Part shown: one piece after another, positions 3,241 to 19,779 of the stretch
Layout of the letters: every line of letters starts with the position of its first letter
How positions within the stretch are numbered: the stretch's first letter is position 1
DNA from: Geomonas silvestris
GTDB lineage: Bacteria; Desulfobacterota; Desulfuromonadia; Geobacterales; Geobacteraceae
DNA length: 64,000 nucleotides
NCBI RefSeq assembly: GCF_014193515.1
Contig: NZ_BLXX01000003.1
Span: forward strand, 62,001-126,000
Direction of reading: 5' to 3'
Notes under the pieces: generated by a model
Database searches by the model: none
Told to the model about the DNA's origin: nothing
Seen by the model: the letters and a program-made list of their open reading frames with translations, nothing else
Position numbers and translations under genes: made by a program

Positions 3241-3681
3241 CGCGATGCACACGCCGTAGAGAGCGATTCACACGGTGTAACTCGCGGTTCACGCGGCGTA
3301 ACTCGCGGTTCATACGGCGTAACTCGCGGTTCACGCGGTGTAACTCGCGGTTCATACGGCGTAACTCGCGGTTCATACGGCGTAACTCGCGGTTCATACG
3401 GCGTAACTCGCGGTTCATACGGCGTAACTCGCGGTTCATACGGCGTAACTCGCGGTTCACACCGTGTAACTCGCGGTTCACGCGGTGTAACTCACAGTTC
3501 ACGCGGTGTAACCCGCGGTTCACACGGCGTATATCGCGGTTCACACAGTGTAACTCGCGGTTCACACGGTGTAACCCGCGGTTCACGCGGTGTAACCCGC
3601 GGTTCACACGGCGTAACTCGCGGTTTACGCGGTGTACATCCCGATTCACACGGCGTATATCGCAGTTTATATCGAAAGACT
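3241..3681. repeat. 21-bp tandem repeat array, 20 units plus a degenerate end
   Basis: Twenty consecutive 21-bp units run from 3241 to 3660 with no insertion or deletion, followed by a decayed unit to 3681. The consensus is CGCGGTTCATACGGCGTAACT split by unit, with most changes at a few positions. Units at 3346-3450 are identical, and the units degenerate toward both ends, as expected for expansion from the centre. All frames that lack a stop in the unit stay open. The minus strand would give a heptad V/M-N-R-E-L-R-R repeat and the plus strand RGS(Y/R/H)GVT. No ribosome binding site supports either, so it is left as non-coding. Confidence 0.9.
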
Positions 3682-3768: not shown

Positions 3769-3859
3769 GGCGCCCCCGCCCCCGGAGACCGGGAGGTAGT
3801 TCCAGGTGGCACCGTTGTCGCGCGAATAGATCGGTGTCCCCCTTCGGTCATCTGACCAG
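3751..3859 (-). pseudogene. 3' remnant of an Asp-box (BNR repeat) protein gene
   Basis: In one minus-strand frame the translation reads TWSDDRRGTPIYSRDNGATW and continues NYLPVSG to a TAG at 3751-3753. SRDNGATW fits the Asp-box S-x-D-x-G-x-T-W exactly, and WSDDR..PIY is the usual lead-in of such beta-propeller blades. Upstream the frame runs into the 3' end of the hybrid kinase gene (stop at 3848-3850), so only about 30 codons of the original gene remain. It seems to be a deletion or recombination scar. It might extend a little further under the kinase C-terminus. Confidence 0.5.
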
Positions 3860-6472
3860 GTGCGCCAGCGCCTGGCGGATCGCCTCGCGGAGCGTGCCCA
3901 TGGTGTAGGGCTTGCGCAGGAAAACCTGGGGCCACTGCAGGTGGTCGCCGCACATCACCTGGCTTTGGTCGTAGCCGCTGGTCAGGATGGCGGGGAGATC
4001 CGGGTCCAAGTTGCGCAGGGCTGCGAGGGTGGACCAACCGTCCAGACCGGGCATGGTCAGGTCGCTCACCACCAGGCAGATAGCTCCCGGGTTCTGCCGG
4101 TACAGCTCGAGCGCCTCCGCACCGTCCCTGGCCTCGAGGACGGCGAAACCCGAGACCCCCAGCATGGCACTGGTGGTCTTGCGGACCGCCGGCTCGTCCT
4201 CGACCAGGAGTACCGTCCCCCCGGAGAGCGCCTGCGGCTGCTCGCCCGCGCTTTTAGGATGGGGGGCGTATTCGAGCTGCGGCAGGTAGACCCGGAAGGT
4301 GCTCCCCTTACCTGGCTCGCTCTCGACGGTCACCGCCCCGTGGTGGGTGCGCACCACCCCGAGCACGATGGCGAGCCCCAACCCGCGGCCGGTGAACTTT
4401 TTGGAGAAGAAGGGATCGAAAAGCTCGCCGATGTCCGCATCGCTGATCCCGCACCCCTGGTCGACGATCTCCAGGGCGCAGAACCGGATCCCCTCCTCGG
4501 GTTCCCAATCCAGCGGAAAGCGGTTCGCGGTCCCAATCTGGGCGGCGTCGACCGACTTAAGGCTTAGCCTGACCTCCCCGGTTCCCCCCGCCAGTGCCTC
4601 CCAGCCGTTGGTCACCAGGCTCGCCAGGAGCTGCTGCAACTGCTGCTCGTTGCCGCTCACCCAGGCCGGGGCACCGTCCATTTCGACGACCAGCGCGACC
4701 CCCGGCGGCAGGCCGTTTTGCAGCGCCGCCGTGCTGTGCCGGCAGAGCTCGGCCAGGTCCAGCTTCTCGTGGCGCCCAGGGGCCTGCCCCAGGTAGGTGA
4801 GCATGAGGGTGCTGACCTCGGCGGCGCGCGAGGCCGCCTTCAAAGCCTCGCCGAGGTTCTCCGCCGGCGGCTTGCCGGGGGGGATACTCAAAAGGGCGAG
4901 CTCGAGGTTCCCCAGCACCGCGCCCAAAAGGTTGTTGTACTTGTGGGCGATGGCCGCCGCCATACGGCCCAGGCTTTGGGCCTTGTGGGCCAACTGCAGC
5001 CTCTTCTCCAGATCGCGCCTCGCCTCCTCGGAGCGGACCCGCTCGGTGATGTCGTGGATGATGGTGTGCAGCAGGGTTCGGCCGCCAACCCGGATCGCGG
5101 TGGAGTAGATCTCGACGTTGCGCAGCTCCCCGCTGGCGAGCCGGTGCCGGAACAGGAAGTGGTCCTCGCCCCCGAGGGCACGGGCCAGCTCTTCCTTGAT
5201 CCTGGGCTGGGGGAGGTCGTTCAACTGGTCGATGCGCTTCTCGGTGAGGGCGCCAGGGGGGTAGCCGTAGAAGGCGGCGGCGGCCTCGTTGGCATCCAGG
5301 ATCTCCCCGGTGCCGGGATCGATGAGGAGCTGGACCGCGCTGCTTTTTTGGAAGAGGTCGTGGTAGATCTGCTCGCTTTCGCGCAGCGCCTCTTCGTTCA
5401 GCATGAGCCGGTGCGAGAGGGCGATCAGGTTTTCCAGGTTGAGCGCGTTGTTGAGCACCACGGCGCAGACCACCACGGTCTCCCGGGCCACCTGGAGGTA
5501 CTGTTCGAGGTGGTCCGGCAGGGCGATCCGGTCCACGCAGATCACCCCCAGGGCCTGCCCCTCCCACTCCACCCGGAGCAGGAACCCGGCACCGGAGGGG
5601 AGCAGCTGGCTGGGGGCCTCGAGTGCGAGTGCGGCTGCCTTCAGGCGGTTGTCCTGGGCCGGGTCGCCGGGGCCGGTACGCACCACCTCGCCGGCGGCCC
5701 CGTCGCCGATCGGGACCCAGGCCACCTCGCCGGCCGCGAACATCATCTGGTAGAGCTGCAGGATCTCGCCCAGCACCGTCTCCTTCCCGGTGGTCTGGAC
5801 GATCAGCTTGAGGAGGTCGAGCACCATGGCGTAGTCCGCGTTGCGGCGCCGGACGAGTTCCAGGCGCTCCCCCGCAGCGGTCTCGCGCCGCTCGGCGCGC
5901 CAGGTGAGCACCAGCCGCTCGCAGCGCAGCGCAAGCTGGTCCAGCCCCAGCAGCACGGTCTGGTGCGGCAGCCGGAGTTGGGAGGCGAAGGCGCTGAGCT
6001 CGCGGTCGGCCTCGGGGAGGACCCCCGTGTCGAGGTGCAGGATCCCGGCGACCGACTCGCCGAAGAGTTCCGCGGCCGTCTCGCCGGCGAGCCCCTGTTC
6101 GGCGAGGCGCTCACGCCACTGGCCAAGCCACCCCGAGGTCACCAGGTACAGCCCCTGTTCCTGGTAGCGCGCGACGGCGAAGTCCCCGGCCAGGGGGGAG
6201 AGGCAGTGCGCGAGGCGGGTGACCCGAAAGACGGGGGCGCCAGACGGCTCTCCGAGCCTCTCCAGGCAGCACCCGGCGAACAGCTCGACCCGGTCCACCT
6301 CAAGCGCCTCGGGTATGAGCCGCACCAGTTCGTCCCAGGCAAGGGGGGGGCGGCCGCAGCGCGCGGGGTAGCTTAAAAAGACCACCTCGGCGGGGTCGAA
6401 GCCGCGTGCCACGTGCTCGAGCTCGGTTGCCAGCCGGGCGCAGGCCACGATTGCCAGGCGTCGCTCACGCAT
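3848..6472 (-). CDS. Hybrid sensor histidine kinase with N-terminal DUF1638-like domain
   Basis: 874 residues with no transmembrane segment seen. Residues 1-205 resemble DUF1638 (the YLVTSGWL stretch and a conserved CC pair), a domain found beside corrinoid methyltransferase genes. A GAF-like region (about 215-345) follows, then a PAS domain (365-485), a HisKA with the acceptor His in AIAHKYNNLLGAV, an HATPase (GCGISD, GRGLGLAIVLG) and a C-terminal receiver (VLLVEDEPAV, Asp in VVSDLTMPGLDG, Lys in FLRKPY). The usual HDFNN of this kinase class is HKYNN here. Its start overlaps the UroD-like gene by 8 bp. I infer that it senses the state of the corrinoid/methyltransferase pair encoded upstream. 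Confidence 0.85.
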   Translation of the reverse strand: MRERRLAIVACARLATELEHVARGFDPAEVVFLSYPARCGRPPLAWDELVRLIPEALEVDRVELFAGCCLERLGEPSGAPVFRVTRLAHCLSPLAGDFAVARYQEQGLYLVTSGWLGQWRERLAEQGLAGETAAELFGESVAGILHLDTGVLPEADRELSAFASQLRLPHQTVLLGLDQLALRCERLVLTWRAERRETAAGERLELVRRRNADYAMVLDLLKLIVQTTGKETVLGEILQLYQMMFAAGEVAWVPIGDGAAGEVVRTGPGDPAQDNRLKAAALALEAPSQLLPSGAGFLLRVEWEGQALGVICVDRIALPDHLEQYLQVARETVVVCAVVLNNALNLENLIALSHRLMLNEEALRESEQIYHDLFQKSSAVQLLIDPGTGEILDANEAAAAFYGYPPGALTEKRIDQLNDLPQPRIKEELARALGGEDHFLFRHRLASGELRNVEIYSTAIRVGGRTLLHTIIHDITERVRSEEARRDLEKRLQLAHKAQSLGRMAAAIAHKYNNLLGAVLGNLELALLSIPPGKPPAENLGEALKAASRAAEVSTLMLTYLGQAPGRHEKLDLAELCRHSTAALQNGLPPGVALVVEMDGAPAWVSGNEQQLQQLLASLVTNGWEALAGGTGEVRLSLKSVDAAQIGTANRFPLDWEPEEGIRFCALEIVDQGCGISDADIGELFDPFFSKKFTGRGLGLAIVLGVVRTHHGAVTVESEPGKGSTFRVYLPQLEYAPHPKSAGEQPQALSGGTVLLVEDEPAVRKTTSAMLGVSGFAVLEARDGAEALELYRQNPGAICLVVSDLTMPGLDGWSTLAALRNLDPDLPAILTSGYDQSQVMCGDHLQWPQVFLRKPYTMGTLREAIRQALAHLVR

Positions 6473-7520
6473 CGGGGGACACCTCCTTGGCGATCGGGTA
6501 GCTGCCGTAGCGCCGCACCGTTTCCGAGATCGCCTCCAGCACGGTTTCCGGCACCTGCCAGGGGATCTCGCCGTGGTTGTCGGCCAGGATGAACCCGCCG
6601 CCGGGGGCGCCGGCGGCGATGGCCCGGCGCACCTGGAGTTCCGCCTCGCGGGGAGACCAGCCGCCCATCTCCAGGCCGTTCAGGTTGCCCAGGATGGCGA
6701 GCCGCCCGGCGAGCGCCGCCTTGAGCTCCGCCAGGTCCTCGCGGGCGCTCACCCCGATGGCCGCAGTGCCGGTGCCGGCCACCTGGTCGAGGAGCGTCCC
6801 GACGCGGCCGGAGGCAAGGTGCGTGGCGGTGGGGCCCTTGATGCGGGGGAGGGTGGCGCGGGCGACGGCGCCTCCCAGCTGCAGGTAGTCACTGGCGGGG
6901 GTGATCTCGGGAGAGGAGAGGGGGTCGAAATAGCAGATGGCGTTGGCCCCGGCGGCGAGCTGGGCGTTCGCCCAGGCCACGCAGAACTCGGTGTTGAGGC
7001 GCATCAGCTCCCAGAACAGCTCGCGGTGCAGGTAGATGAGTTCCAGGTAGTTCTCGAACCCCAGTTGCAGGACCGGGAGCGAGAACGGGGACATGACGGT
7101 GCCGATGATGGGGACGCTCCCCTGGGAGCGCGCCTTGAGGCCGGCCAGTACCGCGAGGACCCTCATGAGCCCCGGGGCCCCCTCGATGCGCGGCGGCGCG
7201 AGTCCCGGGATGCTCGCAATAGCGGTGATGCAGGGGGCGGCCGCGTTGGGGGGGCCGTCTTCCCGGAAGGCGGTCTCCCCGCCCCAGGCCTCGGACTCGA
7301 CCGCGGCGTAGAGGAACCCGTACAGGCAGTCGTGGCCGTAGCGCTTTCTGAGCCTTAGTTGCGCCTCGACCACCAGCTCGGGGGAGTGGTAGTACTCCCG
7401 GATCCCCACGCCGAGCTCGCGGGCCCCGTGCATGGTGAGGAGCAGGAAGAAGGGGACCCGGTCCGGTTCGCGGTGTCCCAGGGTGCAGAGCACCCGCTCG
7501 AGGGGGGTCATCTCTATCAT
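6465..7520 (-). CDS. UroD-family (MtaA/CmuA-type) methyltransferase-like protein
   Basis: 351 residues. The start MIEMTPLERVLCTLGHREPDRVPFF is the classical N-terminus of the uroporphyrinogen decarboxylase / cobalamin methyltransferase family. Family members with methyltransferase activity use a zinc held by H-x-C and a distant Cys. Here the H-x-C position reads THLASG and the C-terminal Cys region reads ILADNHGEIPW, so both Cys ligands appear to be missing. It may bind the methyl-corrinoid partner without ordinary catalysis, or use other ligands. Its ATG overlaps the stop of the corrinoid gene (ATGA), so the two are translationally coupled. Confidence 0.85.
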   Translation of the reverse strand: MIEMTPLERVLCTLGHREPDRVPFFLLLTMHGARELGVGIREYYHSPELVVEAQLRLRKRYGHDCLYGFLYAAVESEAWGGETAFREDGPPNAAAPCITAIASIPGLAPPRIEGAPGLMRVLAVLAGLKARSQGSVPIIGTVMSPFSLPVLQLGFENYLELIYLHRELFWELMRLNTEFCVAWANAQLAAGANAICYFDPLSSPEITPASDYLQLGGAVARATLPRIKGPTATHLASGRVGTLLDQVAGTGTAAIGVSAREDLAELKAALAGRLAILGNLNGLEMGGWSPREAELQVRRAIAAGAPGGGFILADNHGEIPWQVPETVLEAISETVRRYGSYPIAKEVSPDA

Positions 7521-8164
7521 GGGAGCTCCGCGATGAGTCGGCGCAAAAGGGGGACCACCCCTGAGGCGGTAGCGCTGGTGCCGTCGGCACCCACCTCCCA
7601 CCAGAGGTCGGGGTGCAGGCGGAAGGGGGCTCCCCCCACCACCAGCCGGGTCCCGGGGAGGTCGCGGTCCAGGCACTCCTTGAGCTCGCGCACCCTGAGG
7701 GCAGCGGGAAGCATGAGGGTCGAGACCAGCAGGATCCGGATGCCGTCGTTTTGGGCACGCCGGACCAGGTCGTCGACCCCGATCAGGCCGTAATCGGCCA
7801 GGCGGAAGCCGCTGGCGCGCACCACGGAACTCACGATCCGTTTGCCTAAGGGGTGGAAGTCGTCCAGGACCGCGACGGCCATGGCCGGGTGGCTGGTGTC
7901 GGGGAGTTGCTGCGGGGGGAGGATCTCGTCCAGGAGTTCTTCGCTGATCCGGCCGCTCATGTAGACCTGGGAAAGGGCGACCTCGCCGCGCTCCCATCCC
8001 GTTCCGACCCGCTCCAGTGCCGGGGCGAGTACGGTCTCGGCGAAGGCGAGCGGCACGAGGGCGCTGCGCTGGAAACAGTCCCGCGCGGCGTTGCGGTCCA
8101 GCTCCAAGAGGGCAGCGACCAGCAGGTTGATGAGCTCTCCGGTTTCCAGGGGACAAGATGGCAT
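7517..8164 (-). CDS. B12-binding corrinoid protein (MtbC/MtaC-like)
   Basis: 215 residues. The first ~85 form a helical methionine-synthase-cap-like domain (ETGELINLLVAALLELD...ISEELLDEIL). A Rossmann B12 domain follows with DFHPLG, matching the D-x-H-x-x-G signature whose His ligates cobalt, plus VSTLM and VVGGAPF for the nucleotide tail. The ATG at 8164 is preferred because GAGG lies just upstream; an in-frame TTG at 8182 would add six residues. It would carry a methyl or other group on cobalamin for the UroD-like partner. First gene of the corrinoid / UroD-like / kinase unit. Confidence 0.9.
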   Translation of the reverse strand: MPSCPLETGELINLLVAALLELDRNAARDCFQRSALVPLAFAETVLAPALERVGTGWERGEVALSQVYMSGRISEELLDEILPPQQLPDTSHPAMAVAVLDDFHPLGKRIVSSVVRASGFRLADYGLIGVDDLVRRAQNDGIRILLVSTLMLPAALRVRELKECLDRDLPGTRLVVGGAPFRLHPDLWWEVGADGTSATASGVVPLLRRLIAELP

Positions 8165-8601: not shown

Positions 8602-9291
8602 TCAGGCGCCGTCGCCGGCCAGCAGGATGTACCCCATGTTGTGGCGGGCACGCAGCGGCAGGGTGGTCCCCGGGTCCGCCTTCTGCACCTTGGTGCGCAG
8701 CCTGGAGATCAGCACCTCGATACGTGCGTTCGAGGAGATCTCGTCGGGCTGGCCCAGGGCTGCGAAGATCTGCTGGCGCGAGACGTTCTGCCCCAGGTGC
8801 GCGAACAAAAGCTCCAGGAGGATGCACTCCTGCGCGGTCAGCGACACGGTCACCCCGTTGGGGGTCTGCAGGCTCGAGGTCTGGGCGCTGAAGCTCCACG
8901 GCGTGCCGACCGGGGGCGCCAGGCGCCGGCCCAGGTTCTTGATGGCCGCCGCGAGTTCGGCGATCTCCACCGGTTTCACGAAGTAGTAGTCCGCTCCGCT
9001 CTCGAGACCCAGGATGCGCTCTTCGGTCATGCTGCGCCCGGTGAGGATGATGATCCCCAGCGTCGGGTTGTCCCTCATGCGTGCCGCGATCTCCAGTCCC
9101 CCCTCCTTGGGGAGTCCCAGGTCGAGCAGGATGATGTGCGCCGGCCGCTCGGCAAGGGCGGCGTTGAGCTCGGCCCCGTCGCCGACCCCCCGCAGATCAA
9201 AACCAAAGTACGACAGTCCTTTCATGAGGTGGTCGCGCAGTTCCAGGTCGTCTTCGACAATGACAATTGACAACGTGTTCTCAAGCTTCAT
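8602..9291 (-). CDS. OmpR/PhoB-family response regulator
   Basis: 229 residues. Receiver domain at about 8-120 (IVIVEDDLE acidic pair, Asp in LLDLGLPKEGG, Thr/Ser in ILTGRS, Lys in YFVKPVE). A winged-helix DNA-binding domain at about 135-225 follows (SLTAQECILLELL, ARIEVLISRLRTKV, LRARHNMGYIL). It is a transcription factor controlled by phosphorylation. No cognate kinase is directly adjacent. The hybrid kinase 2 kb downstream on the same strand is a candidate partner but carries its own receiver. The ATG is preceded by only a weak ribosome binding site. Confidence 0.9.
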   Translation of the reverse strand: MKLENTLSIVIVEDDLELRDHLMKGLSYFGFDLRGVGDGAELNAALAERPAHIILLDLGLPKEGGLEIAARMRDNPTLGIIILTGRSMTEERILGLESGADYYFVKPVEIAELAAAIKNLGRRLAPPVGTPWSFSAQTSSLQTPNGVTVSLTAQECILLELLFAHLGQNVSRQQIFAALGQPDEISSNARIEVLISRLRTKVQKADPGTTLPLRARHNMGYILLAGDGA

Positions 9292-16007: not shown

Positions 16008-18623
16008 TCACGCCGCGTCCAGCACGTCGCGCACCCGGCTCAAAAGGTCCGACGGGGTCAGCGGCTTGGAGATGAAGTTCACCTCCTTGGTGAACATCCC
16101 CTGCGAGCGGATGTACTCCTCGGAATAGCCGCTCATGAACAGTGCCCGAACCCGGGGGTCGAGCATCCTGATCTCCCGGTACAGGTCGAGCCCCCCCTTC
16201 CCGGGCATGATCACGTCCACCAAAAGCAGGTTCACCTCGCCGCTGAACCGGGCAAAACGCCTGAGCCCCTCCTCTGAATCCCCCGCCTCGAGCACCTGGT
16301 ACTTTTCGCCGCGCAGCACCTCGCCGACGATGGCCCGCACCTCCGGGTTGTCCTCCACCAAAAGCACCGTCTTGCCGCCGCCGGCGGACTGGGGGGCCGC
16401 CTGCACCAGGCGCGGCACCACCGGCTGGGTGAGCGGCAGGTAGATCCGGAAGCTGCTCCCCTGGCCCGGCGCGCTCTCCACCTCGATGAACCCCTTGTGC
16501 TGCTCGACGATGCCGTGCACGATGGAGAGCCCCAGCCCCGGGCGCCCCCCCAGCCCGTGGGTGGTGAAAAACGGCTCGAAAATCCGTTCCCGGGTGGCCT
16601 GATCGAGCCCCACCCCGGTGTCGGAGACGCTCAGGAGGGCGAAACGGCCGCGCCTGCCGTAGCCGTGCTGCCGGACGAAGTCGGCCTCCAGCTGCAGCTC
16701 CTCGGTCCGGATGGTGAGGGTGCCGCCGCCGGGCATGGCGTCCCGGGCGTTCACCGCGAGGTTCATGAGTACCTGTTCCAGGTGGGCGGAGTCGGCGAAG
16801 AGCCTGAGCGGCTCCGGGGCAAGGGTGGTGCTGACCGTGATCCCTTCCCCGAGCACCCGGCTCAAGAGCCGGTCCACCCGCTGCGCGATGTCGTTGAGAT
16901 CCAGGTGGCTTGGGTGCATCGCCTGGTTCTTGCTGTAGGCCAAAAGCCCCCGGGTCAGGACGGCCGCCTTCTCCGCGGAGGCTACCACCTGGGCCGAGAA
17001 CTTCGCGTTCAGGTCCCCCTCGCCGCTGTTCATCTGGATCAGGTTCGCATAGCCGATGATGGCGGTGAGGATGTTGTTGAAGTCGTGTGCCACGCCGCCG
17101 GTCAGCGTCCCGAGCGACTCCATCTTCTGGGCGTGCCTAAGCGCCTCCTCCAGCGCCCGCCGTTCGGTGACGTCCTCCTTGAGCGCGATGAAGTGGCTGA
17201 TCACGCCGCGATCGTCGAGGATCGGCGCCACCATGGCGAGTTCCCGGTAGAGCTCGCCGTTTTTCTTCTTGTTCTGGAACTCGCCGCGCCACTCCTGCCC
17301 GGAGGTCACCGCGCCCCAGAGTTCCTGGTAGAGCTCGTCGGGGGTGCTGCCGGACTTGAGCAGCCGCGGGTTCTGCCCCACCGCCTCGGCGCTCGAGTAG
17401 CCGGTCACCTCGACGAACTTGCGGTTCACGTACTCGATGGTTCCCGCCGTATCGGTGATGACCACGATGCTCGGGCTCTGCTCCACGGCAAGCGACAGGG
17501 TGCGCAGCCGGTCCTCGGAGCGCTTGCGGGCCGTGATCTCCTCCACGGTCTGGATCGCCGCGATGACCTCGCCGCTGCCGTTTTTCACCGGCGCCGAACT
17601 GAAGAGCAGGTAGCCGTCCAACCCGTAGCGGTTGCGCCCCCACCCTTCGCCGTGCATCCCGCCGGGGATGAGCGTCGAGCGGAACCAGAGCGGGTTGTAG
17701 CGGTTGTCCGCCTCGCGGTAGTCGCCGTCCAGCACCAGGTCCGCCGGGGTCGGGTTTTCCTCGAGGTTGAACCCGGACCACTGGCGCCGCGTGCCGATCA
17801 CCTGGTCGGCCGCAAGCCCGGTCAGCTCCTCGCAGGCCCGGTTCCAGATGATCACCTCGTGCCGCTGGTTCAGGACGAAGGCGGGGACCGCCAGGTTCTG
17901 CACCAGGTTTTCCGAGAACTCTTTCTGCTCCGCCAAAAGCGCTTCCATCCGCTTGCGGTCGGTGATGTCGAGCAGCGTCCCGACCACCCCGGCCAGCTCC
18001 CCGGTCCTATCCAGGAACGAGGCCTTGTAGAAGATCACCTCGCGGCTCGACCCGTCGGCGTGCACGATCCGGTTCTCGTACTGCTGCACCCCGCCGACCA
18101 GCTGGAGCTCGCGGTCGGCGCGGTAGTAGATCTTGGCGATCTCGGGGGGGAAGACCTCGAAGACCGACCTGCCGATCAAGGCGGCGCGCTCGCGCCCGAG
18201 GTAGCTTTCGTAGGCGCGGTTCACGCCGAGGTAGCGGCCGGCCAGGTCGCGGTAGAAGATGGGGACGGGGAGGGAATCGAGGATGGCGCTTACCTGGTGC
18301 AGCTCCGCCTGCGCCCGGGCGAGCCGGGCCAGGTGCGAGCGTACCGCGCCCGCCAGGCGGGAGAGCTCGTCGCAGGGGAGGGGGGCGTCTGCGGCACTCT
18401 CGGCAGGGCCGAGTTCGGCTGCCAGAGGGGCGAGCAAAGCGGTGAGCCGGCGGCTTGCCAGGTAACCCACGCAGAGGGCCGCTCCCCAAGAGAGGGCGAG
18501 GAGCGCCGGGAAGAGCAGCGATCCCCGTGAGAAGGCGGCGAGCATGCCGGCAGACACGAGCAGGAGCGCGCTCAAAAGGGCCCAGAGAAGGGTCAGTTTT
18601 CCAGCTAAGGTCCGCATCAGCAT
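16008..18623 (-). CDS. Membrane hybrid sensor histidine kinase (PAS x3, HisKA, HATPase, receiver)
   Basis: 871 residues. The ATG at 18623 is chosen because GGAGG lies five bases upstream; an in-frame GTG at 18629 overlaps that site. Two hydrophobic helices at about 5-60 are joined by a very short loop, so there is almost no periplasmic sensor. Three PAS domains cover about 110-490, followed by HisKA with GGVAHDFNNILTA, HATPase (DTGVGLD, GRPGLGLSIVHG) and a C-terminal receiver (VLLVEDNPEV, LLVDVIMPGKGG). It probably senses a cytoplasmic or redox signal. The HD-GYP regulator gene lies 70 bp upstream on the same strand and is a likely output. Confidence 0.9.
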   Translation of the reverse strand: MLMRTLAGKLTLLWALLSALLLVSAGMLAAFSRGSLLFPALLALSWGAALCVGYLASRRLTALLAPLAAELGPAESAADAPLPCDELSRLAGAVRSHLARLARAQAELHQVSAILDSLPVPIFYRDLAGRYLGVNRAYESYLGRERAALIGRSVFEVFPPEIAKIYYRADRELQLVGGVQQYENRIVHADGSSREVIFYKASFLDRTGELAGVVGTLLDITDRKRMEALLAEQKEFSENLVQNLAVPAFVLNQRHEVIIWNRACEELTGLAADQVIGTRRQWSGFNLEENPTPADLVLDGDYREADNRYNPLWFRSTLIPGGMHGEGWGRNRYGLDGYLLFSSAPVKNGSGEVIAAIQTVEEITARKRSEDRLRTLSLAVEQSPSIVVITDTAGTIEYVNRKFVEVTGYSSAEAVGQNPRLLKSGSTPDELYQELWGAVTSGQEWRGEFQNKKKNGELYRELAMVAPILDDRGVISHFIALKEDVTERRALEEALRHAQKMESLGTLTGGVAHDFNNILTAIIGYANLIQMNSGEGDLNAKFSAQVVASAEKAAVLTRGLLAYSKNQAMHPSHLDLNDIAQRVDRLLSRVLGEGITVSTTLAPEPLRLFADSAHLEQVLMNLAVNARDAMPGGGTLTIRTEELQLEADFVRQHGYGRRGRFALLSVSDTGVGLDQATRERIFEPFFTTHGLGGRPGLGLSIVHGIVEQHKGFIEVESAPGQGSSFRIYLPLTQPVVPRLVQAAPQSAGGGKTVLLVEDNPEVRAIVGEVLRGEKYQVLEAGDSEEGLRRFARFSGEVNLLLVDVIMPGKGGLDLYREIRMLDPRVRALFMSGYSEEYIRSQGMFTKEVNFISKPLTPSDLLSRVRDVLDAA

Positions 18624-18693
18624 GGCCACCTCCGGGTGCCGGAACGGCGCGCTAGCGAGGGGGAGCGGAGCAGGCGCGACACGGGGAACCCCT

Positions 18694-19779
18694 TCAGCTG
18701 GCGGGCTCTTCCTGCTGCGAGGCGAAGATCTCTTCGAAATCCGACGCGCCCTTCAGGAAGCTCTCGAGGATGCAGGGGTCGAAATGCTCGGGCAGGGTGC
18801 GGCCGTCCCCCTTGGTGATGATCTCCACGGTGCGCTCGTGGGTGAGGGACGGCTTGTAGACCCGGACGCTGCGCAAGGCGTCGTACTGGTCGGCCAGCAT
18901 GACGATGCGCCCCTCGAGCGGGGTCTCGATACCCTTGGTGCCGTGGGGGTAGCCGCTGCCGTCCCAGCGCTCGTGGTGGGTGAGCGCGATGGAGGCGGCG
19001 AGCTGCAGCACCTTGTGGCTCGATCCCGCCAGGATGCGCCCGCCGATCAGGGTATGGCTCTTCATGATGTCGAACTCGCTCGGGGTGAGCGGTCCCGCCT
19101 TGAGCAGGATGGCGTCCGGGATGCCGATCTTGCCGACGTCGTGCATGGCGGCGGCGAGGCCGATGGTCTCCACGAAATCCGCGGGCATGTGCATGATCTC
19201 GGAGATGCGCCGGGCGTAGAGCCCGATGCGGGAGATGTGCTTGCCGGTGTCCTCGTCGCGCAATTCGGCTGCGGCGGTGAGCCTCTCGATGGTCTCGCGG
19301 CTCATGGAGCGCATCTGCTCCAGCGCGTCCCCCAGCTCGCGGGTGCGCTGCTCGACCGTGCGTTCCAGCTCGATCTTGTAGTTCTTCTCGATGAGGACCA
19401 GCCGCTTGTAGTTGATCCCCTTCTCGACGGCGTGGATCAGGTAGGGGGGCTTGAACGGCTTGATGATGAAGTCGAAGGCGCCCTTCTTGATCGCCGACAC
19501 CGCCATCTCGAGCTCGGCGTAGGCGGTCATCAGGATCACCGGGATGTCCCGGTCGTTTTCGTGGATCTTCTCGAGGAGTTCGATGCCGGTGATGCGCGGC
19601 ATGTTGACGTCGGTCAAGACGACGTCGGGGGGGGAGCGCCGTAGTTCGGCCAGGGCATCGAACCCGTTGGAGAAGGGGCGCACCTCGAAGCCGCTCACGG
19701 TGAGCAGCATCGCCACGCTCTCCAGAACGTACGGGTCGTCATCGACGACGATGACCAGCCCTGATGCAGTTGTTTCCAT
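18694..19779 (-). CDS. Response regulator with HD-GYP c-di-GMP phosphodiesterase domain
   Basis: 361 residues from the ATG at 19779 (GGGAGAG upstream). Receiver at about 10-125 (VVDDDPYV, Asp in [12 protein letters not shown], Lys in IIKPFKPP), a coiled linker, then HD-GYP with [10 protein letters not shown] and [11 protein letters not shown], so the metal ligands are intact. It should hydrolyse c-di-GMP when phosphorylated. It is paired with the downstream hybrid kinase. A weak sigma-28-like pair (TCAAGTTT, 12 bp, GCCGAAGC) lies at 19821-19848 upstream, but I do not rely on it. Confidence 0.92.

Follow-up and report, generated by a model that had tools for sequence, protein, structure and literature searches.

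A 64,000-nt stretch of the Geomonas silvestris genome (contig NZ_BLXX01000003.1, positions 62,001 to 126,000 of the forward strand; hereafter, the window) encodes, side by side, a corrinoid protein, a UroD-type protein, and a hybrid sensor histidine kinase, which raises the question of whether these genes serve methyl-transfer metabolism or signalling. The corrinoid (B12-binding) protein gene (7517 to 8164, minus strand; 215 amino acids from the ATG at 8164, comprising a helical cap and a Rossmann B12 domain) overlaps the gene for the UroD-fold, MtaA-like protein (6465 to 7520, minus strand; 351 amino acids) by 4 bp, between the stop codon of the former and the start codon of the latter (7517 to 7520, minus strand). 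The UroD stop in turn overlaps the start of the kinase gene (3848 to 6472, minus strand; 874 amino acids, in the order DUF1638, GAF-like, PAS, H-box/HATPase, receiver) by 8 bp (6465 to 6472, minus strand). The coordinates, strand, and overlaps given for this set in an initial annotation of the window all check out. From comparison with other loci, we conclude that the trio is probably a dedicated sensory (signal-input) module, at a probability of roughly 0.85.

The trio was compared across a set of 58 related genomes, including that of the window. Searching with the kinase N-region gave matches in 25 genomes; an orthologous UroD (at least 520 bits) is present in 19, and the identical 19 carry a DUF1638-type N-domain in a long frame. 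Nineteen loci outside the window were read, belonging to the 18 other carriers and to the sister-branch genome G018, and all 19 have the order corrinoid, UroD, DUF1638 (genes at L025, L026, and L027 were cut short by gene calling, and fuller matches came from other searches). The third gene is a DUF1638-kinase fusion at 16 of the 19 and a DUF1638-GGDEF fusion at L036; at L042, DUF1638 is a gene of its own with a kinase gene after it, and L037 has two trios, one arranged in this same way and one with a DUF1638-GAF protein without recognised output. Neither outcome that the initial annotation named as refuting was seen: DUF1638 scores above its cut-off (see below), and relatives do not have a split trio with the kinase elsewhere. 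Among related genomes that carry an orthologous UroD, the trio is intact in 18 of 18, a kinase or another DUF1638 protein being in place at each.

More distant loci were also followed. Eleven loci with lower-scoring UroDs were read, from search rows whose middle scores were only partly covered. At seven of them (L173, L174, L175, L177, L178, L180, and L182), where gene calling cut some UroD frames, corrinoid, UroD, and DUF1638 are separate genes, and the gene that follows encodes a kinase in seven of seven. No DUF1638 was called at L176 and neither corrinoid nor DUF1638 at L179, kinases lying a few kb off at both, and no UroD was called at L183; the eleventh locus, L181, is the orphan described below. 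At L175, a RACo-like reductive activator gene (5836 to 7056) precedes the sister-branch corrinoid-UroD-DUF1638-kinase cluster, which may hint at how the redox state of the corrinoid is maintained in the module. A phylum-wide search found DUF1638 in 101 of 394 genomes, and 20 loci were followed up, most of them picked for long or divergent DUF1638 frames. Four are further trios: two have kinases (L077 and L080), L079 has a PAS-only protein near a kinase gene, and L075, of a sister branch, has a fusion to HD_5, which we take to be of the HD-GYP type. The other 16 show no such trio; at two of them, L073 and L090, DUF1638 does lie among corrinoid and UroD genes, but the order differs and the DUF1638 protein includes no kinase, being fused at L073 to a hydantoinase-like region.

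Scanning GTDB genomes with the UroD alignment extended the comparison to the best 80 of 279 relatives; 7 of these 80 are loci already read among the related genomes. A corrinoid gene lies directly upstream of UroD at 78 of these best 80 loci, and a DUF1638 and/or GAF-like protein directly downstream at 75 (66 with DUF1638, 9 without). The output carried by this third protein is a kinase at 44 of the 75, GGDEF at 9, and not recognised or not complete at 22, some of the last being truncated by contig ends or frame breaks. The remaining five comprise three contig ends, L097, and L120, where the corrinoid frame is broken and placed after UroD. This UroD-first order at L120 and the two module-type UroD genes in one cluster at L096 and L105 belong to cable bacteria and a Desulfobulbaceae bin. 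By our own assignment from record titles, the module occurs in Desulfobacterota, Pseudomonadota, Bacteroidota, Chloroflexota, and Nitrospirota; further titles name SAR324, Riflebacteria, Verrucomicrobia, Neomarinimicrobiota, Coprothermobacterota, a Tindallia bin, and an archaeal (Methanomicrobiales) bin. Most are metagenome bins, and the strains include Geomonas limicola and Desulfonema magnum (complete chromosome). Comparison shows the corrinoid, UroD-fold, and DUF1638/GAF-like proteins to be genetically locked, with the third partner carrying or preceding interchangeable outputs.

An alternative is ordinary regulated metabolism, in which UroD and corrinoid proteins would pair up as a functional methyltransferase I, with the kinase merely regulating the operon, as proposed for the mec cassette, where MecA-D (kinase, corrinoid, UroD-type protein, and receiver) lie in a metabolic cluster (PMC9768040). 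The corrinoid and UroD families are themselves known from methyl transfer. The surroundings of the trio were weighed with those of paralogous UroD genes, 20 loci hand-picked from the UroD search rows of the same order. As judged by the profiles used, none of the 20 (14 MtaA-type, 6 HemE) has a direct signalling neighbour. The initial annotation was right that methyl-accepting and tetrahydrofolate genes are lacking nearby, in that no pterin-binding, MTHFR, or MTTB gene was found in the window; the genome has pterin-binding and MTHFR matches on other contigs and no match to MTTB. A separate locus in the same genome, L041, holds HxC-type UroDs, RACo, and a standalone DUF1638, so that, with the pterin-binding and MTHFR genes elsewhere, metabolic methyl transfer has genes of its own. 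Frames of at least 130 amino acids without a profile match were also screened for recurrence in flanks of at most 8 kb (many contigs being shorter). Fourteen gene clusters occur at 3 or more of 71 loci; 10 fall inside assigned frames and were taken as antisense or out-of-frame, and the other four occur at 6, 3, 3, and 3 loci. No non-signalling gene therefore recurs at more than 6 of 71 loci, the commonest resembling an ABC ATPase by eye, and this lack of a recurrent metabolic neighbour weakens the idea of a pathway with its regulator. GGDEF and HD-domain outputs, moreover, do not directly regulate an operon, DUF1638 is fused into the signalling protein, and the zinc ligands of the UroD protein are absent (see below); we regard regulated metabolism as distinctly unlikely.

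The UroD protein matches PF01208 at 167 bits (Pfam), in line with its initial description as UroD-like, and its predicted model (predicted local distance difference test [pLDDT] score, 95.2) is closest in fold to MtaA (4ay7; Z, 40.3; root mean square deviation [rmsd], 2.1; 330 residues aligned), a match that spans the whole protein. It scores below the NCBIfam cut-offs for both mtaA_cmuA (83 bits versus 235.4) and hemE (40.8 bits versus 302.95). Where MtaA has HxC, the window protein has HLA; we take H-x-C ... C to be the zinc ligands of MtaA. The HxC motif occurs in 0 of 96 module UroDs and 0 of 10 sister UroDs versus 26 of 26 metabolic paralogues, and the cysteine of the C-terminal segment in 1 of 96, 0 of 10, and 26 of 26, respectively. 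At the zinc-ligand positions, module UroDs mostly have H-x-A-S-G and D-N/Q-H-G-E-I-P-W/F, and E76, D63, D198, and E317 are kept without exception (79 of 79). Over the 43 loci with all parts, mean pairwise identity is 62.5% for UroD, 49.9% for the corrinoid protein, 31.2% for DUF1638, 29.7% for the GAF-like domain, and 26.1% for the kinase; constraint is strongest on UroD, which a single ligand common to all would lead one to expect, and its identity at this level implies such a shared ligand.

A quick tree of 89 UroDs, in which every third public locus was kept and which carries a long-branch warning, places the 46 module UroDs on one branch (support, 100). Together with 10 sister-branch signalling UroDs and one orphan (L181), they form a group (support, 95) that stands apart from the metabolic and HemE sets, the HemE paralogues being a separate branch.

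On a 221-amino-acid version starting at an upstream TTG, the corrinoid protein scores 42.7 bits for PF02607 (B12-binding_2) and 51.1 bits for PF02310 (B12-binding), both over the Pfam cut-off, and it carries D-F-H-P-L-G, which bears out the intact D-x-H-x-x-G motif originally noted; that motif is present in 89 of 89 full-length module corrinoid proteins checked. Among solved structures, those that score best against it are of methyltransferase corrinoid proteins and of a related putative protein, and the methyltransferase corrinoid model outscores CarH (50.3 versus 32.3 bits, both under their own cut-offs). No cut-off for a named NCBIfam subfamily is reached, the best being pyl_corrinoid (50.3 bits versus 215.3). 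The W-x9-EH signature of CarH, with the spacing we presume for it, is found in 0 of 89 module corrinoid proteins. A more distant structural relative is the GGDEF-named B12 structure 8j2y, presumably a photocobilin. Light sensing through B12, as in CarH and the photocobilins, would take its signal from the photochemistry of cobalamin. It could draw on this match and on the coupling of B12 domains in photocobilins to GGDEF, among other outputs (PMC11796333). Such systems give no reason for UroD or DUF1638 to be present, however, and with the higher score of the methyltransferase model and the signature absent in 89 of 89 proteins, light sensing was dropped as a leading idea and is hardly credible.

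The kinase N-terminus was initially described as resembling DUF1638, and a profile search places PF07796 above its Pfam cut-off (37 bits versus 27 for the protein itself; 41.1 bits when the whole genome was searched). The domain covers residues about 6 to 192 (5897 to 6457, minus strand), of which Pfam's own DUF1638 stretch is residues 58 to 180, and it contains four cysteines, Cys11, Cys39, Cys69, and Cys90, kept in 61 to 64 of 65 module members. C11, C69, and C90 align with cysteines of canonical DUF1638 in 35 of 37 rows (with 2 gaps), 37 of 37, and 37 of 37, respectively, and the C39 column holds His in 16 of 37 canonical rows and other residues in 21. In the predicted model, the four sit at or just past strands 1 to 4; these positions are the only ground on which we infer that they cluster. 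This pattern suggests that the cysteines may form a metal or iron-sulfur (Fe-S) site. Foldseek and VIA-align matches for the N-region model were taken up by its GAF half and not by DUF1638. Elsewhere, DUF1638 has been genetically tied to B12 reactivation in Phaeobacter (PMC5764234) and found more abundant, as was RamA, in Ruegeria on N-osmolytes (PMC12478193).

Downstream of DUF1638, the domain string PAS/GAF/HisKA/HATPase/receiver had been proposed. PAS, HATPase, and receiver are each over the Pfam cut-off, and Pfam calls neither GAF nor HisKA in the window protein. In an AlphaFold model of kinase residues 1 to 359 (pLDDT, 94.2), residues 206 to 354 (5411 to 5857, minus strand) take a GAF fold (Z up to 13.8 with 3mf0; rmsd, 2.1; 146 aligned), with DevS GAF-B (2vjw) matching at Z 13.4 (rmsd, 3.0; 122 aligned), and a long predicted helix (residues 178 to 225) links this domain to DUF1638; the relative L075 lies just over the Pfam GAF cut-off. 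HisKA (PF00512) gives no match in the window kinase at 1e-3 and is matched by some relatives, several above and several below its cut-off; the H-box itself, AIAHKYNN, is present at residue 507. PAS occupies residues about 366 to 480 (5033 to 5377, minus strand; PF13426, 36.7 bits at 383 to 477), the H-box and HATPase_c with its N, G1, and G2 boxes lie at 4277 to 5014 (minus strand; PF02518, 71.1 bits), and the C-terminal receiver spans residues 754 to 865 (3878 to 4213, minus strand; PF00072, 57.7 bits; SDLTMP and KP motifs). The H-box, N, G1, and G2 boxes and the receiver Asp and Lys are at 507, 622, 671, 697, 803, and 854, respectively.

How might these parts sense? MtaA sits over the cobalt of a corrinoid protein. 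In the form of the sensory module that we propose, the UroD protein would bind one conserved small molecule, sit over the cobalt of its corrinoid partner in the fashion of MtaA, and methylate it or otherwise change its state, the methyl group not being handed to metabolism. Docking onto the corrinoid protein and reading its state would then fall to the DUF1638-GAF region of the kinase, perhaps by way of a metal or Fe-S site held by cysteines, and the signal would pass down the helix to GAF, PAS, the kinase core, and the receiver domain. We lean slightly towards this form, in which a UroD ligand alters the cobalt state and DUF1638-GAF reads it. As the sensed variable, methylation state is preferred, with redox state a close second. 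We give about even odds to the broader idea that such modules make up a class of B12-dependent chemosensors, with methyltransferase machinery as the sensing head and the methyl or redox state of cobalt read by DUF1638-GAF, feeding kinases, diguanylate cyclases, or HD-domain phosphodiesterases.

Two further readings would keep the sensor and change what it senses. In a redox or oxygen sensor, there would be no methyl turnover, and oxidation of cob(I) to cob(II), perhaps with the DUF1638 cysteine site, would be the signal. The loss of HxC zinc ligands from UroD and the RACo-like gene at the one sister-branch locus, L175, fit this, as do carriers such as magnetotactic bacteria, cable bacteria, and Beggiatoa relatives, which inhabit oxic-anoxic boundaries. 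Three DUF1638 cysteines are family-wide, and DUF1638 has the link to B12 reactivation described above (PMC5764234). UroD is the best-conserved part, however, and it is not obvious why sensing redox alone should require it. Two carriers, G035 and G044 (both assemblies of hundreds of contigs), show no RACo gene; on balance, a redox sensor is somewhat unlikely. RACo was separately considered as an obligatory partner and proved uninformative, 52 of 58 genomes having it regardless of the module and these two carriers being without it. A free-cobamide sensor, in which the module would report B12 supply via the apo versus holo corrinoid protein, would account for a corrinoid protein with the lower-ligand motif being nearly always present, but it leaves the strongly conserved UroD unexplained, and by eye no transport or B12-synthesis gene is conspicuous among the recurrent ones apart from the ABC ATPase-like gene at 6 of 71 loci; we find it very improbable.

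For the dedicated sensory module itself, the case is carried by the conserved trio, its interchangeable outputs, the missing HxC...C ligands, and the lack of a recurrent metabolic gene, and to that extent the initial preference for sensing over metabolism holds. Several observations weigh on the other side. DUF1638 is not strictly required and cannot be the sole reader, since 9 of the 75 loci with the third partner have the GAF-like protein without it. Where the GAF-like protein stands free (eight loci), the first gene recognised downstream of it encodes a kinase at two loci and a receiver at one; at four others (L132, L137, L144, and L155), a kinase lies just upstream of the corrinoid gene. 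At L097, the corrinoid-UroD pair is followed by unrelated genes with no signalling gene. UroD-type methyltransferases with other metal ligands exist, so loss of HxC is no proof of lost catalysis. Loci were recruited by their similarity to UroD or DUF1638, many of them from metagenome bins. Finally, one long-branch member of the UroD signalling group in the genome of the window, the orphan L181 (7366 to 8418), has no signalling gene beside it and is flanked by polyphosphate kinase and hydrogenase small-subunit genes.

Some features of these loci deserve mention in their own right. The loci with a free-standing GAF-like protein in place of the DUF1638 fusion (L102, L124, L132, L137, L144, L155, L158, and L171) share, except for L171, a C-terminal PICxxCKxIRxD...C motif with a zinc-ribbon-like look in that protein, and a similar tail occurs in some kinase-less DUF1638 proteins. 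In the window, an OmpR-type response regulator (8602 to 9291) lies upstream of the trio on the same strand; it is also found at the locus of the closest relative, L023, and is not the upstream neighbour at other loci of the genus. Downstream of the kinase gene is a tandem array (3263 to 3657) of a 21-bp unit, with 18.8 copies and 87% matches. About 8 kb from the trio, a second hybrid kinase (16008 to 18629) sits beside a receiver-HD_5 gene (18694 to 19779) on the same strand, and the related-family trios L100, L103, L114, and L150 themselves run on into kinase and receiver-HD_5 genes.

To our knowledge, known B12-dependent signalling consists of riboswitches or light-sensing B12 domains. Light sensing by B12 domains is an established case (PMC11796333). 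If the proposed module is real, it would put B12 to another use, in a sensor assembled from methyltransferase components, and DUF1638 would gain a role in docking or reading the corrinoid protein. It would also assign a function to a gene set of many anaerobic and gradient-dwelling microbes, which are its carriers. No description of the trio or module was found in the open-access literature, to which the search was confined, subscription papers and preprints being outside its scope.

Four known systems nonetheless resemble it in part. MtaA, the methylcobalamin:coenzyme M methyltransferase (4ay7), works with a corrinoid protein and shares its fold with the whole UroD protein, whereas the trio UroD lacks the HxC...C zinc ligands and lies in a signalling neighbourhood. 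Photocobilins and CarH likewise use a cobalamin-binding domain as signal input, some with GGDEF output, but do so in one protein, by adenosylcobalamin photochemistry and with the EH signature (PMC11796333); the trio has three proteins, a methyltransferase-type corrinoid protein without an EH signature, and UroD and DUF1638 partners. In Phaeobacter inhibens, the DUF1638 protein PGA1_c13340 adjoins a corrinoid protein gene and, like a RamA-like protein, is important for B12-dependent methionine synthesis; it is standalone and metabolic (PMC5764234), whereas the window DUF1638 is fused to GAF and signalling domains. The fourth cysteine of the window DUF1638 occupies a position that varies among the 37 canonical rows, which do not include PGA1_c13340. 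The nearest published system is the mec dichloromethane cassette, in which a histidine kinase, corrinoid, UroD-superfamily, and receiver protein (MecA-D) are encoded together within a catabolic cluster; the mec kinase has a PocR domain and its cluster has methyltransferases I and II and a transporter, and the description, in the part cited, includes no DUF1638-GAF kinase, by which the trio is set apart (PMC9768040).

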